21,210 nucleotides of DNA from a virus. Below are positions 2,576-21,210 of this stretch, one piece after another (position 1 is the stretch's first letter; the number at the start of each line of letters is the position of its first letter). Location of the stretch: positions 1 to 21,210 of IMG/VR virus record IMGVR_UViG_3300044729_002903. One strand, written 5' to 3'. Under the pieces are notes generated by a model. That model had not been told where the DNA came from and did not search any database. It saw only the letters and a program-made list of their open reading frames with translations. Made by a program: the position numbers and the translations under genes.

Positions 2576-3304
2576 ATGAGCAAATTATTTATGGTTGGAA
2601 CTCCTATAGGAAATCCAGAAGATATGTCTATTAGATCTTTGAATTATATTAAAGAGGCTAAAAATATAGTGGCAGAAAACCCAGAAGACTTTAAGAGATT
2701 TTTAGAATCTTTAAATATAGATAAAACTGGGGCCAACATAATGTATGCCCATACTTGGCCTGACCATATAGGGGAAGAACCACTCATTCGTAATGTCCTA
2801 GACCTATTAACATCAGGAGAGGATGTTTATGTAATTTGCGATGCAGGCATGCCAGGGATAGCAGACCCAGGGGGAGCAATTGCCCAGGAATGCATTAAAC
2901 GTGGTATCCAAATAATATCAACTCCTGGCCCCAGTGTAATAATTTCATCTGCGGTATCTACTGGTATCTCAAATGCATTTTTATTTGGTGGCTTTCTTCC
3001 TAAAGAAAAGGGTATGCGTCTAAAGAATTTACAGGCCTATAGAGTTAGCCCAGTCCCATACATATTCTTAATAACATATTTTTTTGATGCTGATGGGTTT
3101 GATGACTGTATCAAAGTTATGGGGGATCGTAATGGTGTCCTATGCTACAACCTAACTACTCCTAGAGAAACCACTATTTTTGGAAAACTATCAGAGTTAA
3201 AAGAGAAATATGCTCAAAGGTTTAATGCTGAACAACCAGATGATGTAACATTAATTATCGACAGTTATCCAAACAAAGCACTACAAATGCCATATTGCTG
3301 GTAG
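2576..3304 (+). CDS. RsmI-like tetrapyrrole-methylase-family protein
   Basis: A 242-residue protein of the SAM-dependent TP-methylase superfamily, closest in motifs to RsmI, which 2'-O-methylates C1402 of 16S rRNA. Visible motifs: VGTPIGNPED (7-16), ICDAGMPGIADPG (87-99), STPGPS (115-120) and GGFLPKEKG (138-146), in the RsmI order. The usual AEDTR after the first motif is changed to AENPED, and DAGTP to DAGMP. It is shorter than cellular RsmI (about 280 residues) and seems to lack the C-terminal domain, so the target may not be 16S rRNA. It is leaderless and followed by a nucleotidyltransferase gene with its own promoter. A second, more divergent relative lies at 18376-19119. Confidence 0.85.
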   Translation: MSKLFMVGTPIGNPEDMSIRSLNYIKEAKNIVAENPEDFKRFLESLNIDKTGANIMYAHTWPDHIGEEPLIRNVLDLLTSGEDVYVICDAGMPGIADPGGAIAQECIKRGIQIISTPGPSVIISSAVSTGISNAFLFGGFLPKEKGMRLKNLQAYRVSPVPYIFLITYFFDADGFDDCIKVMGDRNGVLCYNLTTPRETTIFGKLSELKEKYAQRFNAEQPDDVTLIIDSYPNKALQMPYCW

Positions 3305-8102: not shown

Positions 8103-8176
8103 CGATCCCAACGGGACTTGAACCCGTAGCCTTTACCGTGACAGGGTAACGATCTAACCAATTGATCTATGGGACC
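8103..8176 (-). tRNA. tRNA-Asp (anticodon GTC)
   Basis: A complete 74-nt cloverleaf. The acceptor arm GGTCCCA pairs with TGGGATC (one G-T), the D stem is GATC/GATC, the anticodon arm is TTACC-CTGTCAC-GGTAA with anticodon GTC, and the T arm is ACGGG-TTCAAGT-CCCGT. The discriminator base is G and no CCA is encoded. It follows DUF932 on the same strand and lies between two protein operons; a phage copy probably boosts decoding of GAC/GAT codons late in infection. Confidence 0.95.
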
Positions 8177-16227: not shown

Positions 16228-16617
16228 TCAGATTTGTGGCCAAGAGCCTCTGTCCTCTAAGACAAAGCCATTCTCTCTATCGAACAATTGATAATCTAGA
16301 CTTACAACTTTAAAGGTTTCTCCAAAAGCAAGAAGAACCTTAGCAAGATTTAATTCTCCGCAGGTATACAAGTCAAACTGAACTAATGATGGATCCTGCT
16401 CATCCCATATATGAAATGCTACATGGCTAGTCTCTATCATTACAATAGCCGTAAGGCCACGGTTGCCTGGTTTGTCAACATAGGACGCAAAAGGTCCTTT
16501 AATAATCTTCATGTCAATACTTTCAACTAGGCGGGTAAGGAAATCAACGCCTTGCTCTTCGGTATTGATAGGATTTTCTACTTTGGCATTAACAAGTAGG
16601 TGTTTGTGAAATATCAT
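16228..16617 (-). CDS. S-adenosylmethionine decarboxylase-like protein (SpeD family)
   Basis: A 129-residue protein close to the prokaryotic SpeD length. The core ETSHVAFHIW (62-71) followed by QFDLYTCGELN (80-90) matches the pyruvoyl-enzyme signature: S64 would become the pyruvoyl group, H69 matches the catalytic histidine 5 residues later and C86 the catalytic cysteine. Cellular SpeD has Glu directly before the serine, but here it is Thr, and two residues are inserted between H69 and C86. SpeD makes decarboxylated SAM for spermidine; some SpeD relatives have become arginine or ornithine decarboxylases, so the substrate is open. A Shine-Dalgarno site (TTGGAG) precedes the ATG. Its first 12 codons are repeated at 18258-18294. 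Confidence 0.85.
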   Translation of the reverse strand: MIFHKHLLVNAKVENPINTEEQGVDFLTRLVESIDMKIIKGPFASYVDKPGNRGLTAIVMIETSHVAFHIWDEQDPSLVQFDLYTCGELNLAKVLLAFGETFKVVSLDYQLFDRENGFVLEDRGSWPQI

Positions 16618-16639
16618 GGTTTCTCCAATCTAGTTTTCT

Positions 16640-16668
16640 AGTATACACTATTTGACAAATTAGGTCAA
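16640..16668 (-). promoter_or_regulatory. Promoter for the SpeD-like gene
   Basis: TTGACC (16663-16668), a 17-nt spacer and TATACT (16640-16645). It interlocks with the opposite promoter at 16652-16680: each -35 box lies in the spacer of the other. Confidence 0.75.
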
Positions 16669-16680
16669 GCGTGATAAAAT
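16652..16680 (+). promoter_or_regulatory. Consensus promoter for a leaderless zinc-protein gene
   Basis: TTGACA (16652-16657), a 17-nt spacer and TAAAAT (16675-16680), then 6 nt and the ATG at 16687. Confidence 0.75.
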
Positions 16681-16686
16681 AAATAT

Positions 16687-16827
16687 ATGCACTTACTTGG
16701 ACTAGAAATTCGGAAAGACCGTAGAGAAAAGAAATACTCTATGAGGTCTTGCTATCGCTGTAGCAGGATTATCTGGGTTGCAAAAGAGCAACTACGTGTC
16801 GACAACTACTGCTCATCCTGTAATTAA
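16687..16827 (+). CDS. Zinc-ribbon mini-protein, 46 aa
   Basis: Basic N-terminus (MHLLGLEIRKDRREKKYSMR) then C22-x2-C25 and C42-x2-C45, a four-cysteine zinc ribbon. Leaderless start after a TTGACA-17-TAAAAT promoter. Its stop overlaps the stop of the convergent 2OG oxygenase by 4 nt. It may bind DNA or RNA; no family recognised. Confidence 0.7.
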   Translation: MHLLGLEIRKDRREKKYSMRSCYRCSRIIWVAKEQLRVDNYCSSCN

Positions 16828-17333
16828 TATTTAGGGTTTTTGTATTTAAATTGATCTGTATATGAAATTGTTATAATATATCGCTTGCCAGATTTAACTG
16901 GAGTCACTCCATGCAGGAACGGAGTAGGGAAATAAACTAACTCATATTTTTCGGGGGCATAAGTATAACCATTATTTATTTCTGGAAATGACAACTCTCC
17001 TCCAGTATATGCGTCATTAAGATATATAACCGTACTAACTGTCTCTGTATCATTTTCTACATCCTTATGGTCATACATGAAAGATCCTTCTTCATATAGG
17101 GCTACAAGGTTTTCTCGAAAATAAAGATTTTGATCTCCAATAAATTTTTTAGAATATTTTTTGACAAACTCTACCACTTCTGGGTAGTTAGAGTTATAAA
17201 TCCTAAAGGTGCCATCTTTTCGCTCATTATTAAGTTTCTTCCTAGATCGTAAATCATCCATAAGGTCAATAAGAGACTGAGCATCTTCTGGCTCTACAAA
17301 GTTTTTAATATACTTTATGTCTTCTAGGTGCAT
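16824..17333 (-). CDS. 2OG-Fe(II) oxygenase, prolyl-4-hydroxylase-like
   Basis: A 169-residue single-domain enzyme. H89-K90-D91 and H141 are the predicted Fe(II) ligands and R151 (SGKRYIITISY) the 2-oxoglutarate ligand; STVIYLNDAYTGGELSFPE (100-118) is the typical core of P4H-like phage oxygenases. The substrate is unknown. The ATG is 6 nt after TGA-TATAAT, so it is leaderless, and its promoter backs directly onto that of the gene at 17363. Confidence 0.88.
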   Translation of the reverse strand: MHLEDIKYIKNFVEPEDAQSLIDLMDDLRSRKKLNNERKDGTFRIYNSNYPEVVEFVKKYSKKFIGDQNLYFRENLVALYEEGSFMYDHKDVENDTETVSTVIYLNDAYTGGELSFPEINNGYTYAPEKYELVYFPTPFLHGVTPVKSGKRYIITISYTDQFKYKNPKY

Positions 17334-17339
17334 TTAAAA

Positions 17340-17348
17340 ATTATATCA
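17340..17348 (-). promoter_or_regulatory. Extended -10 promoter, leaderless
   Basis: TGA then TATAAT (17340-17345), 6 nt before the ATG at 17333. Confidence 0.7.
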
Positions 17349-17350
17349 TG

Positions 17351-17356
17351 TATAAT
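17351..17356 (+). promoter_or_regulatory. -10 box, leaderless, back to back with the minus promoter
   Basis: TATAAT, then 6 nt and the ATG at 17363. Only 5 nt separate it from the opposite -10 box, so the two cannot be used at the same time. Confidence 0.65.
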
Positions 17357-17362
17357 ATTTAG

Positions 17363-17500
17363 ATGGCAATCCTAGATAACCTTGAATATGCAATGTGGAA
17401 TGATAAACCAGAAAACGATGGTTTGGCATTAAAAATTTTTTCAGAATTTTGCTGTGATTCTTGTTCTTGTAAGTCTGAGTCAGATCACAAAAAGTTATAG
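17363..17500 (+). CDS. Cys-cluster mini-protein, 45 aa
   Basis: MAILDNLEYAMWNDKPENDG with a C-terminal CCDSCSC cluster that could bind a metal. Leaderless start. Its stop overlaps the stop region of the convergent 2OG oxygenase by 6 nt. No family recognised. Confidence 0.6.
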   Translation: MAILDNLEYAMWNDKPENDGLALKIFSEFCCDSCSCKSESDHKKL

Positions 17501-18217
17501 ATTATATCCAGCAGCCCTGTAGGCATCATCTGTAGTTTGTCCATCGCTGATACCAATGCAGTCTGTATTGTTGTCTCTCATAACATTTTTACTTGTTTGT
17601 AATAGATGTGCATATTTGGCTTTATATTCTTCTTCTTGGGCTTCTGCTTTTTCTTTATGGTCTGGAACATATTCTTCATTTTCTATATCAGACCAAACTT
17701 GGACTAGCATAATGTCATAGTAATCGTCTGGACCAAATTCTATGTCTGGTCTCCAATGAACATCCTGATTTCCAGTAAACCATACAGCCGAACCTTCACC
17801 TGGCATATCAAATTTTTCATCTTTAACGTATATATCCCATTGCTTGCTAGACTTTAATCTAACTGTGCAAGTATAGATAATCTTATTTGCAACAACATCT
17901 ATGTGGGGGGATAAATTTGGAACACCACCACTCTCATGTGAGTATCTAGCAAAGATCAAGGCATTATTTGTAAAAGGTATTTTATTCTGTCCGTATTCTT
18001 CACCTTTCTTGATAAAGAAATTATATATATCTTGATGCCACGGACCGTATGTAGTTATAAAACCATTATTTGCAAATTTAAAAAATTTAGCATACTTATC
18101 TCCACTCTCATGGAGACCTTGTTCCATTAAATGATCTACATTTTTGTAAATAAGATCTATTTCTTTTTTCCCTAAAAAGTTTTCAACTTGAAAGGGCTCT
18201 ATTCTTTTAACCTTCAT
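17495..18217 (-). CDS. 2OG-Fe(II) oxygenase-like protein, 240 aa
   Basis: Counting from the ATG at 18217, H105 and D107 (LSPHID) are the predicted first two iron ligands, and H154 in GNQDVHWRPDIEF the third. The usual 2OG arginine is not obvious; R156 or a later residue would have to serve. A C-terminal extension of charged helices follows. The start is set by an extended -10 box (TGT-TATAAT) 6 nt upstream; the frame stays open to an ATG at 18319, which would read the chimeric segment at 18238-18294 in another frame. Probably an active hydroxylase on an unknown substrate, but less certain than the other two. Confidence 0.75.
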   Translation of the reverse strand: MKVKRIEPFQVENFLGKKEIDLIYKNVDHLMEQGLHESGDKYAKFFKFANNGFITTYGPWHQDIYNFFIKKGEEYGQNKIPFTNNALIFARYSHESGGVPNLSPHIDVVANKIIYTCTVRLKSSKQWDIYVKDEKFDMPGEGSAVWFTGNQDVHWRPDIEFGPDDYYDIMLVQVWSDIENEEYVPDHKEKAEAQEEEYKAKYAHLLQTSKNVMRDNNTDCIGISDGQTTDDAYRAAGYNL

Positions 18218-18223
18218 AATCTG

Positions 18224-18232
18224 ATTATAACA
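18224..18232 (-). promoter_or_regulatory. Extended -10 promoter, leaderless
   Basis: TGT then TATAAT (18224-18229), 6 nt before the ATG at 18217. It lies directly downstream of the chimeric ORF. Confidence 0.65.
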
Positions 18233-18237
18233 TTCTT

Positions 18238-18294
18238 TTACCATTTGCCTATTGGGCATTTGGCATTTACTAATAAGTGCTTGTGAAATATCAT
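18238..18294 (-). pseudogene. Chimeric 18-codon ORF: SpeD start fused to DUF6171-like end
   Basis: Codes MIFHKHLLVNAKCPIGKW. The first 12 residues are identical to the start of the SpeD-like protein at 16617, and the last 10 match the end of the zinc protein at 19094 (LVNAKCPIDKW) with one change. GGGAGAGACT before the ATG resembles the SpeD ribosome site. Joint at LVNAK, which both genes share. Probably a recombination relic, possibly kept as a leader peptide. Confidence 0.75.
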
Positions 18295-18359
18295 AGTCTC
18301 TCCCTTTACTGCTGATCATTTATTGAGCGTCTATCCAGTATACAACATTGGGGGGGAGA

Positions 18360-18368
18360 TGATATACT
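18360..18368 (+). promoter_or_regulatory. Extended -10 promoter for the second methylase gene
   Basis: TGA then TATACT (18363-18368), 7 nt before the ATG at 18376. No Shine-Dalgarno site. Confidence 0.65.
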
Positions 18369-18375
18369 CATATAT

Positions 18376-19119
18376 ATGGCTTTAATCGTTGCTGCTATAG
18401 ATATAGGAAATAAAAAAGATATTCCACAACGTACGCTGGAAGAAATAAAAAAATCTAACGTAATAATATGCGAGTATATTAACTCATTTAAACGGATGAT
18501 GCTTGCATTAAATATTGACATATCCAATAAAAATCTTATAGAGTTTAATCCATATATAAGTATGCCAGATAAAGTTATTAAAGATGTATTACAAATGCAA
18601 GAAGATGGCAAAAGTATAATGATTATAGGAAATCAAGGAACTCCATTAATTACTGACCCAGGGTTTGAAATTGTTGCAGAGTTTAGAAAAAAGAATTTAC
18701 CTGTATATTCAATTCCTGGACCTAGTGCTATAACTGCAGCACTCTCTACATCTGGTATATTGCCTGAAAAATTTTACTTTGCAGGCTTTATGCCATTAAT
18801 ATCAAAAGATCGTATAACATTTTTACATAATTTAAAAAATAAAGCAGACTGCGCTATTGTTATATTTGAACCAATTATTTTTAGTGGTTATCAATCATGC
18901 CTAGACATAAAAGAAGTTTTTGGATCAGAGAACAAAATGTCTTTGCACATAGATATGACGAGACAAACTGAAAAATCATTTTTATCTTCTGTATCTGAAT
19001 GTACTAATTGGATAGATAAAATTATAAACTCAGAGTCTTTTTTTAAAAACTATAATGAAGCCTCTGGGCTAGTATACGTGATAGATAACTGGCCTACCAT
19101 TTATCAATCGGACATTTAG
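18376..19119 (+). CDS. Divergent RsmI-like TP-methylase-family protein
   Basis: A 247-residue protein with GNQGTPLITDPG (85-96), SIPGPSAITAALSTSG (112-127) and FYFAGFMP (133-140), the RsmI order and wording. The N-terminal motif is changed: AAIDIGNKKDI replaces the usual TPIGN-x-DI, and ICEYINSF stands where AEDTR is expected. It keeps the SAM-binding GTP loop but may have a new substrate, or have lost activity. The C-terminal half is unlike RsmI and lacks its last domain. It differs strongly from the product of 2576-3304, so it is not a recent duplicate. Its 3' end overlaps the convergent zinc-protein gene by 26 nt. Confidence 0.8.
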   Translation: MALIVAAIDIGNKKDIPQRTLEEIKKSNVIICEYINSFKRMMLALNIDISNKNLIEFNPYISMPDKVIKDVLQMQEDGKSIMIIGNQGTPLITDPGFEIVAEFRKKNLPVYSIPGPSAITAALSTSGILPEKFYFAGFMPLISKDRITFLHNLKNKADCAIVIFEPIIFSGYQSCLDIKEVFGSENKMSLHIDMTRQTEKSFLSSVSECTNWIDKIINSESFFKNYNEASGLVYVIDNWPTIYQSDI

Positions 19120-19294
19120 CATTTACTAAAGTGGTTTTTAATTTCATAAAACATCCACACTTGCGACAGGTCTCTGTTTTAGGTCTAAAATATTCACAAG
19201 ACTTACAAATTTCTAGGCGGGACTTAACAATCTCATCTGTGCTTTTTGGCTGATTAGGATTAATTAAATCCCAAGGCCTAACATCTTTGGTCAT
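19094..19294 (-). CDS. DUF6171-like zinc protein, 66 aa
   Basis: RPWDLINPNQPKSTDEIVKS leads into CKSCEYF, CRKCGCFM and the terminal CPIDKW. The C-x2-C, C-x2-C-x-C and final C-P-[IL]-x-K-W are typical of short zinc proteins found in many phages. Function unknown. The ATG overlaps the previous stop (ATGA), so it is coupled to the DHH-like gene. Its last 10 codons recur in the chimeric ORF at 18238-18294. Confidence 0.8.
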   Translation of the reverse strand: MTKDVRPWDLINPNQPKSTDEIVKSRLEICKSCEYFRPKTETCRKCGCFMKLKTTLVNAKCPIDKW

Positions 19295-20049
19295 CTAAAC
19301 TCAATCTCCTGGTTATACGTGACACTATACTCACCTGAATATATTTCCGCATATGAAATGATATCATCCATATACCTTATAAGGGTGTTTAAGCCGACTT
19401 TATCAGCCATATACTTGGTACCCTTAGTTAATGGGAGATAATCCGTCCCCTCGCTTTCTAGGGCCTTATTTAGGGTATCTAGATATCTTTCCTTGCCAAA
19501 CCTTTTTGATGCAAAAGATTGTGTTGGATATTTCACTCTAATGTCTGAGATATCTAAGGTTTGTTCAATAATTGGAGTTACATCGGATTCTTTGAGCCTT
19601 TTTGACCATGTACGCATGTTACTGCTGTAATTTTCCATATTGATTAGTGTTGAATCAGCGTGAGCCATGCGTTTAAGGTCATATAGATCAAGATCAACCT
19701 CTATTGCCGACGAAATTAAAAAACAGGTTGCGTAAGGAAACTTTGAAGTATACATTTTAGTTTTCCAAAAACGATTTGGATTGAATGACGCATCGGCCAT
19801 ATTGTCATTTTCAATTCTCATATGATTTCCGATCGAAACGAACTCTTTCGTATTCATATCACAATCGACGAAAAGACATTCTTCAGGCTTAACATCGTCA
19901 GCAAGACATAATATGTTCTTATCGTATGTACCAACAATTTGCGAACCGAATTTGCGATTCAATAACTCCGCCGACATAAAACCATCGACATCTGGAGAGA
20001 TAATAATTTTTTGCGACTTCTGCAGTGTTTCCAATATAGCGCTTTGCAT
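19291..20049 (-). CDS. Possible DHH-superfamily phosphoesterase, degenerate
   Basis: Start at ATG 20049 with GGAG 9 nt upstream; a TTG 15 nt further up is also in frame. The opening IIISPDVDGFMSAELL (15-30) resembles DHH motif I (D20 and D22), LFVDCDMN (59-66) motif II, and SIGNHM (72-77) stands where DHH would be. A later MAHADSTLIN (128-137) could supply another metal ligand. If correct, it would be a nanoRNase or pAp-phosphatase-like enzyme, but the exact DHH triad is missing, so it may be inactive or a distant relative. First gene of a two-gene operon. Confidence 0.5.
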   Translation of the reverse strand: MQSAILETLQKSQKIIISPDVDGFMSAELLNRKFGSQIVGTYDKNILCLADDVKPEECLFVDCDMNTKEFVSIGNHMRIENDNMADASFNPNRFWKTKMYTSKFPYATCFLISSAIEVDLDLYDLKRMAHADSTLINMENYSSNMRTWSKRLKESDVTPIIEQTLDISDIRVKYPTQSFASKRFGKERYLDTLNKALESEGTDYLPLTKGTKYMADKVGLNTLIRYMDDIISYAEIYSGEYSVTYNQEIEFR

Positions 20050-20071
20050 TTTATATATCTCCAAATAATAA

Positions 20072-20080
20072 TGTTATAAT
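20072..20080 (+). promoter_or_regulatory. Extended -10 promoter
   Basis: TGT then TATAAT (20075-20080), 9 nt before the ATG at 20090; nearly leaderless. It overlaps the region that must hold the promoter of the opposite DHH-like gene. Confidence 0.65.
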
Positions 20081-20089
20081 ACTCATGTT

Positions 20090-20368
20090 ATGTTATTTTC
20101 AAGCCAATCCGCTCTTACTATCGAGATCATCATAGGTGTTACTACTATTGTAGCAGGACTCGTTGCAGCGGTCAAATGGTTAACAAAACATTATTTTGAC
20201 GAAATACGATCTGAAATGAGGCCCAATTCTGGATCAAGTTTAAAGGACCAAGTTACGAGATTAGAAGTTCGGATGACAGAAGCAAATGAAATGAGAAAAG
20301 ATATGGATAAAAAAATAGATAAGATGTTCGACACTTTACTAACACATATATCAAAAACTGATAAATAA
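20090..20368 (+). CDS. Membrane-anchored coiled-coil protein, 92 aa
   Basis: One N-terminal hydrophobic span (about residues 9-31, LTIEIIIGVTTIVAGLVAAV) followed by a charged helix that looks like a coiled coil (SSLKDQVTRLEVRMTEANEM onwards). Layout and size fit phage holin-like or spanin-like membrane proteins, but there is no lysis cassette beside it in the window. It is the last gene before the structural region. Confidence 0.65.
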   Translation: MLFSSQSALTIEIIIGVTTIVAGLVAAVKWLTKHYFDEIRSEMRPNSGSSLKDQVTRLEVRMTEANEMRKDMDKKIDKMFDTLLTHISKTDK

Positions 20369-20553
20369 TTTTCTCTATATATAATATATAAATAATATTA
20401 AAGGTTTAAAGATATTCTTTTTTCTTTATATATTTTAAGTATACACTATCGAATTGACACTCTGGTCCTAAATCTTAAATAATGAGACAAAACATACAAA
20501 ATTGTTACTAAATTGTTACAAAAAAATATATCAAATAAAATCAAAAATAATAG
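20369..20553. other. AT-rich spacer
   Basis: No gene or motif I can support; it separates the membrane-protein gene from the terminator and the structural module. Confidence 0.6.
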
Positions 20554-20593
20554 GTGTCTGGGAGTTCTATAAATGCTCTCCTGGGCACTTTTT
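20554..20593 (+). terminator. Rho-independent terminator before the structural module
   Basis: GTGTCTGGGAG (20554-20564) pairs over 11 positions (with G-T pairs) with the segment at 20578-20588 around a 13-nt loop, followed by TTTTT. It insulates the structural genes from upstream transcription. Confidence 0.7.
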
Positions 20594-20602
20594 GATATTT
20601 AA

Positions 20603-20611
20603 TGGTATAAT
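20603..20611 (+). promoter_or_regulatory. Extended -10 promoter for structural genes, leaderless
   Basis: TGG then TATAAT (20606-20611), 6 nt before the ATG at 20618. Confidence 0.7.
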
Positions 20612-20617
20612 CCTATT

Positions 20618-20995
20618 ATGTCTTCTTGTGAACCAGAGATTTTTGGTGCCGATCCAGTTACTATAAGGTGGAATGTTGTCCGTGGTGACACATCTACCAT
20701 TAGGGTTGATTTTTTAAATGATGACGAAACTACTAGTCTAGACACCGATGGATGGAGTTTCCTTGCTAGTGCATATGACCGTAAAACGGATATTCTTGAT
20801 GAATTAGAAGTAGAGTCTTTTGATGGGTATGTTATTGTTACTGCTCCCGCAGAAATCACATCGCTTTGGGGAACTACTTATGGTGGAACAGTTGCAGAGT
20901 TAAGTTTTGACCTAGAAATAACAATCGACGAAACAGTCTGGACTCCAGTTATAGGAACAATATCTGTAATTGGTGATGTTAGTGCGGGACTATAA
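20618..20995 (+). CDS. Virion structural protein, baseplate/BppU-like
   Basis: A 125-residue all-beta protein. The start (IRWNVVRGDTSTIRVDFLND) followed by TSLDTDGWSFLASAYD fits the WxRGDxxxIRFxLxD ... DLTGWTF pattern of phage tail and baseplate domains. It ends in a strand-rich DLEITIDETVWTPVIG region. First gene of the structural run. Function from pattern only. Confidence 0.65.
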   Translation: MSSCEPEIFGADPVTIRWNVVRGDTSTIRVDFLNDDETTSLDTDGWSFLASAYDRKTDILDELEVESFDGYVIVTAPAEITSLWGTTYGGTVAELSFDLEITIDETVWTPVIGTISVIGDVSAGL

Positions 20996-21093
20996 TGGCT
21001 GTCATTAAAGTTAGTAATGTAAAAACAAATTTGCCAGACGTAATTAAAATAACTGCATCTGGATCTGTTAAAACGGTAAAAATAAAGAAGTAG
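20995..21093 (+). CDS. Small basic protein, 32 aa
   Basis: MAVIKVSNVKTNLPDVIKIT ... SGSVKTVKIKK, beta-rich and basic. The ATG overlaps the preceding stop (TAATG). Function unknown, probably structural by position. Confidence 0.6.
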   Translation: MAVIKVSNVKTNLPDVIKITASGSVKTVKIKK

Positions 21094-21101
21094 GCTGAGA
21101 G

Positions 21102-21210
21102 ATGGCTGTAAGTAAGAGCGTCCCAACCCCATTTGATAGTAAAGATAAATATATTCAGCAGGTAATTGAGGCACAGCAAAACAATTCATCTAATACTCCA
21201 ATAACACAAG
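21102..21210 (+). CDS. Start of a further protein, cut by the window edge
   Basis: MAVSKSVPTPFDSKDKYIQQ and on; GAGAG lies just before the ATG. Only the first 36 codons are visible, polar and Gln/Asn-rich. Probably another structural protein by position. Confidence 0.55.
   Translation, partial: MAVSKSVPTPFDSKDKYIQQVIEAQQNNSSNTPITQ

Follow-up and report, generated by a model that had tools for sequence, protein, structure and literature searches.

Elements which integrate into the 3' end of a gene, with the end being restored, are known for tRNA genes. Other ways of gaining genes have been described for phages. A moron consists of one gene, equipped with a promoter and a terminator of its own, that has been inserted between genes which are neighbours in relatives; the mechanism of moron acquisition has been called mysterious (PMC4378225). 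As for the novel joints of mosaic phage genomes, illegitimate and homeologous recombination have been argued to contribute about equally to them, and RecET-promoted recombination between matches of 5-13 bp has been cited (PMC2327257).

The entry of a single accessory gene is usually hard to read, its joints having been erased. Here we describe a case in a viral stretch of 21,210 nucleotides (from now on, the window, i.e. the whole stretch that was analysed), in which an ORF of 18 codons is genuinely chimeric, made up of the ends of two genes. In all likelihood, it is the right-hand joint left by the insertion of a gene, through a double crossover with a relative having a zinc gene, a methyltransferase gene and speD. 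As such, it adds one more example to the known mosaicism of phages, and its joint is unusually easy to read: since the empty site, the duplicated gene end and the foreign gene tail all survive, the likely route (a homologous crossover plus a microhomology crossover) can be read. The features concerned are the following (L-numbers denote related contigs):

16228-16617, minus strand: resident speD (AdoMet_dc; PF02675, E=2.7e-12)
17495-18217, minus strand: oxygenase-like gene, directly after the zinc gene in the empty-site relatives, with its own -10
18218-18258, minus strand: original end (CPIGKW, stop) of the resident zinc gene, displaced, plus the 20-nt spacer to the oxygenase start codon; collinear with L006 3945-4726
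18238-18294, minus strand: scar, the chimeric ORF of 18 codons, with speD 5' codons 1-12 and zinc gene 3' codons (record self-search, relatives)
18259-18273, minus strand: candidate right crossover zone, TTAGTAAATGCCAAA (LVNAK codons), microhomology of at most 15 bp shared by the donor's speD and the resident zinc gene (scar against L006)
18295-18344, minus strand: imported speD 5' region, with extended -10 TGTATACT (18344-18337), leader and SD AAGGGAGAG
18376-19119, plus strand: inserted RsmI-like methyltransferase gene, tetrapyrrole-methylase fold (PF00590, E=1.1e-10), with its own -10 TGATATACT (18360-18368)
19094-19118, minus strand: foreign zinc 3' tail (ending KCPIDKW, stop), 8/25 nt different from L006 (Fisher test); same tail type in L113, L116 and L118
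19094-19294, minus strand: resident DUF6171 zinc-ribbon gene (PF19668, E=1.5e-10), intact, tail replaced
19178-19190, minus strand: probable left crossover zone within the zinc gene (nt 105-117), if the donor was L118-like

Compared with the systems mentioned above, the locus shows both likenesses and differences. Like a moron, the insert holds one gene with a promoter-like -10, has a lower G+C content and lies between genes that are adjacent in 11 relatives; nevertheless, the last 26 nt of the methyltransferase gene overlap the zinc gene end in antiparallel orientation, which leaves little room for a terminator. Moreover, while no recognisable signals were found for the morons of PMC4378225, the joints can here be placed within about 15 bp. 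Hence the insertion is best termed moron-like, working as a moron would, and full membership is not claimed. As in mosaic phages (PMC2327257), one joint lies at a short identity and the other in homologous sequence, with the difference that the identity at the right joint is a coding-word match between two unrelated neighbouring genes. Finally, as with integration into gene 3' ends, the original end persists here beyond the insert, which itself supplies the working end; unlike such elements, the insert has no integrase, recurrence or demonstrated att core.

The ORF lies on the minus strand, from its ATG at 18294 to its stop at 18238 (ATG ATA TTT CAC AAG CAC TTA TTA GTA AAT GCC AAA TGC CCA ATA GGC AAA TGG TAA), and its product is exactly MIFHKHLLVNAKCPIGKW. 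Residues 1-12 are identical to the first 12 of the speD (AdoMet_dc) product (16617-16228, minus), and the last 11 are those of the DUF6171 zinc protein end (19294-19094, minus), except for G instead of D. At the DNA level, the front repeats 45 nt of the speD start (84%), including 9 nt of the ribosome site (GGAGAGACT in the scar, GGAGAAACC in speD), and the back repeats 35 nt of the zinc gene end (83%). When a 121-bp segment was compared with its own record, it matched the speD start with E=1.2e-9 and the zinc end with E=4.1e-6 and, in consequence, neither match is due to chance. Thus, the chimera of speD start and zinc end described in the earlier note is confirmed, and so are the copied speD ribosome site and a recombination joint in the common LVNAK codons, at which the identity between scar and L006 starts.

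A separate contig (L004/L005) has the identical structure, with 15 of 8730 bp different from the window and none of these in the scar region, which argues against an assembly artefact. Conservation of the ORF in related phages, named in the earlier note as the sign of a functional leader peptide, was looked for: the ORF is absent from every other contig searched, being present in the window and L004/L005, which represent one phage population. To this population the scar peptide is restricted, and it shows no sign of selection; most likely, it is a by-product of recombination and not a working gene.

In a functional leader peptide, the 18 codons would be translated ahead of the oxygenase-like gene, coupling or attenuating its expression. 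The ORF does have a promoter-like -10 and a good SD, and it ends 20 nt short of the next ATG, but it is confined to one phage population, its parts are accounted for by the joint, and no Rfam element lies near it. Furthermore, the oxygenase-like gene has its own -10, TGTTATAAT, 6 nt before its ATG, which is found also in most of the empty-site relatives, where there is no scar; this spacing suggests a leaderless message. A leader function is accordingly most improbable. The name "oxygenase" is tentative, as the product of 17495-18217 has no Pfam match and a weak match to phrog_2954.

As regards gene starts in the window as a whole, 10 of 44 are preceded by a TATAAT-like -10 whose end lies 5-7 nt from the ATG (the null over all ATGs is 4.5%; p about 2e-5), which likewise suggests leaderless messages. 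These starts, mostly of accessory genes, are at 1483, 2576, 3398, 12066, 16687, 17333, 17363, 18217, 18376 and 20618. Many of the remaining genes carry SD sites.

Relatives were located using the oxygenase-like gene (17495-18217, minus) as query. The closest related contig, L006, has an oxygenase-like protein that is 95% identical. In 11 related contigs (L006, L007, L008, L110, L112-L115 and L117-L119; several are near-identical, and L119 ends within the oxygenase-like gene), the oxygenase-like gene follows 20 bp after the zinc gene, with nothing but this 20-nt spacer between them, and the methyltransferase gene is absent from this position. Given this empty site, the change is an insertion in the window's lineage. 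Window positions 19095-21210 are collinear with L006 1865-3979, and 17492-18273 with L006 3945-4726, so that the 35 bp of L006 3945-3979 are present twice in the window, in copies 856 bp apart with the methyltransferase gene between them. The net gain relative to the empty site is 856 bp. This extra DNA comprises (i) an RsmI-like methyltransferase gene together with a putative promoter of its own; and (ii) the beginning of a speD other than the resident one, with promoter, ribosome site and first codons. Its G+C content (0.31, against 0.36 in the window) differs modestly, as the neighbouring oxygenase-like gene has 0.34.

From the LVNAK codons toward the oxygenase start codon, across tail and spacer, the scar is identical to L006 except for one base; before LVNAK, the two are unrelated. 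The resident side of the right joint is thus TTAGTAAATGCCAAA, at most 15 bp, with a length that hangs on the bases of the donor. The zinc gene of L006 ends in LVNAKCPIGKW and TAA. The CPIGKW tail of the scar differs from L006 at 1 of 27 nt, while the CPIDKW tail of the window's zinc gene differs from it at 8 of 27 and from L113 and L116 at only 2. Along the whole zinc gene, there are 8 differences from L006 in the last 25 bases and 4 in the preceding 176 (Fisher p 6.7e-6). On this comparison, the scar tail and spacer are what used to be the 3' end of the resident zinc gene, and the present CPIDKW tail is imported. This reverses part of what the earlier note had proposed, i.e. that the scar may come from another member of the zinc family: another member was indeed involved, but CPIGKW is the resident ending and CPIDKW the foreign one. 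The T that creates the stop codon of the methyltransferase gene (19117-19119, antisense of GCT) is among the foreign bases.

The import probably reaches further into the zinc gene. Three of the four other differences from L006 (nt 117, 126 and 144) are the base of L118, while nt 104-105 have the L006 base; for this reason, the donor tract is likely to start between nt 105 and 117. Both crossovers within one 11-bp word would not fit the L118-like bases found from nt 117 onward, and such a scheme was abandoned.

Another mechanism is a site-specific mobile cassette, in which the methyltransferase unit would excise and integrate at the TTAGTAAATGC word, bringing a replacement zinc 3' end with it, in the manner of the elements that target gene 3' ends. 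Direct repeats of 35 bp (83%) do flank the insert, and the zinc 3' end is restored. In contrast, donor-like bases begin as early as zinc nt 117, which is ahead of the repeat; no integrase-like gene is present within the 0.86-kb insert itself, which holds the methyltransferase only; LVNAK occurs in the zinc genes of few relatives; and neither a second insertion of the unit nor a recurrent att core was found. We give this mechanism practically no credence.

The scar head has 36 coding bases, five of which are not those of the resident speD; all five differences are silent. If every substitution is taken as equally likely, the probability of such an outcome is about 0.0003 and, hence, the head is not a decayed copy of the resident speD. 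Owing to these five silent differences, a recent duplication of the resident speD start was discarded as its origin. We infer that the head diverged while it was within a working speD elsewhere. Upstream of it, there are an SD and the TGTATACT -10, and elements of the same kind precede speD in relatives. Between the ATG of the methyltransferase gene and that of the scar, 81 bp hold two divergent -10 elements; this stretch is as expected for an intact intergenic region from a phage in which methyltransferase and speD are divergent neighbours.

The inserted gene encodes a protein with a predicted tetrapyrrole methylase fold (PF00590) that resembles RsmI, the 16S rRNA C1402 2'-O-methyltransferase. 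It is not filed as RsmI, its score against the RsmI equivalog TIGR00096 (119.6 bits) being below the cut-off of 167.9. Its -10, TGATATACT, is 7 nt ahead of the ATG and is a promoter by sequence match only. The window encodes two different RsmI-like methyltransferases (2576-3304 and 18376-19119), both below the RsmI cut-off, and further RsmI-like paralogues are present in the related contigs L121-L126.

The donor arrangement of zinc gene, methyltransferase and speD was not found in IMG/VR (protein search and motif pattern), in 49 whole related contigs or in GTDB genomes. Neither IMG/VR nor a set of one genome per prokaryote species yielded a close relative of the methyltransferase; paralogues located elsewhere in related contigs reach only 26-35%. 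Among GenBank phages, tblastn with the methyltransferase gave distant matches only (best about 31% identity), none of them adjoining speD, and direct DNA comparison matched nothing. A search for zinc tails ending in CPIDKW did find donor-like tails, but the next gene in such contigs is not the methyltransferase.

Gene order in relatives points to a possible source. In all 23 relatives with both genes in the fetched stretch, the zinc gene precedes speD, with both on the same strand, and the two are only about 40-50 bp apart in L033, L040 and L045; a donor with the methyltransferase as single gene between them is therefore plausible. The past adjacency of speD and zinc gene assumed in the earlier note holds in so far as they are near neighbours in relatives; the reverse order, with speD ahead of the zinc gene, which a simple deletion would require, was seen in none of the 23. 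The zinc-to-speD interval (16617-19094 in the window) is a variable slot in which accessory genes vary by phage (L016, L017, L027-L045 and L055). One could regard it as a recurrent loading site for accessory genes, with the methyltransferase unit as a cassette entering at the LVNAK coding word common to zinc end and speD start, although we consider this very unlikely.

Under the insertion by double crossover, the donor phage would have had three genes in a row: a zinc gene of the DUF6171 type, next a gene for an RsmI-like methyltransferase that points towards the zinc gene, and then speD, divergent from the methyltransferase gene and expected to start with ATGATATTTCACAAGCACTTA. During co-infection, a donor tract would have replaced sequence in the ancestor of the window's lineage through (i) entry by a homologous crossover inside the zinc gene; and (ii) exit by a crossover between the LVNAK codons of the donor speD and those of the resident zinc gene, at TTAGTAAATGCCAAA, with at most 15 bp of identity. 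As a result, the zinc gene would remain intact with a donor tail, the methyltransferase would be gained, and the resident zinc tail would be fused behind the promoter, ribosome site and first codons of the donor speD. The sequences themselves show the empty site, the duplication, the foreign zinc tail, and the origins of the scar tail (native) and the scar head (speD); the donor gene order, a one-step rather than two-step route and the recombination enzyme are what we infer from these comparisons.

The same final sequence would result from two steps ending in gene loss. In that case, a larger insertion or duplication would first have put a complete donor block of zinc gene, methyltransferase and speD in front of another copy of the zinc gene. 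Most of the block's speD and most of this additional zinc copy would afterwards have been lost in a deletion at the short LVNAK match; the joint indeed looks like any short-repeat deletion. Nevertheless, this requires an extra intermediate, seen in no contig, the locus shows a net gain against 11 relatives, and speD lies upstream of the zinc gene in none of the 23 relatives with both genes fetched. We therefore judge it unlikely. The gene loss by deletion put forward in the earlier note is contradicted by the 856 bp gained, methyltransferase included, against the empty site in 11 contigs. Such a mini-ORF, chimeric as it is, can be mistaken for a trace of gene loss when it marks a gain.

Two other features of the window can be mentioned. 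A tRNA gene is located at 8103-8176 on the minus strand (Rfam RF00005, 68.5 bits). Besides, a protein of 257 aa (19291-20064, minus), has no match in Pfam, NCBIfam or PHROGs, although relatives also have it ahead of their zinc gene; SPDVDGFMSAELL, VDCDMN and similar motifs may point to a likeness to DHH phosphoesterases.
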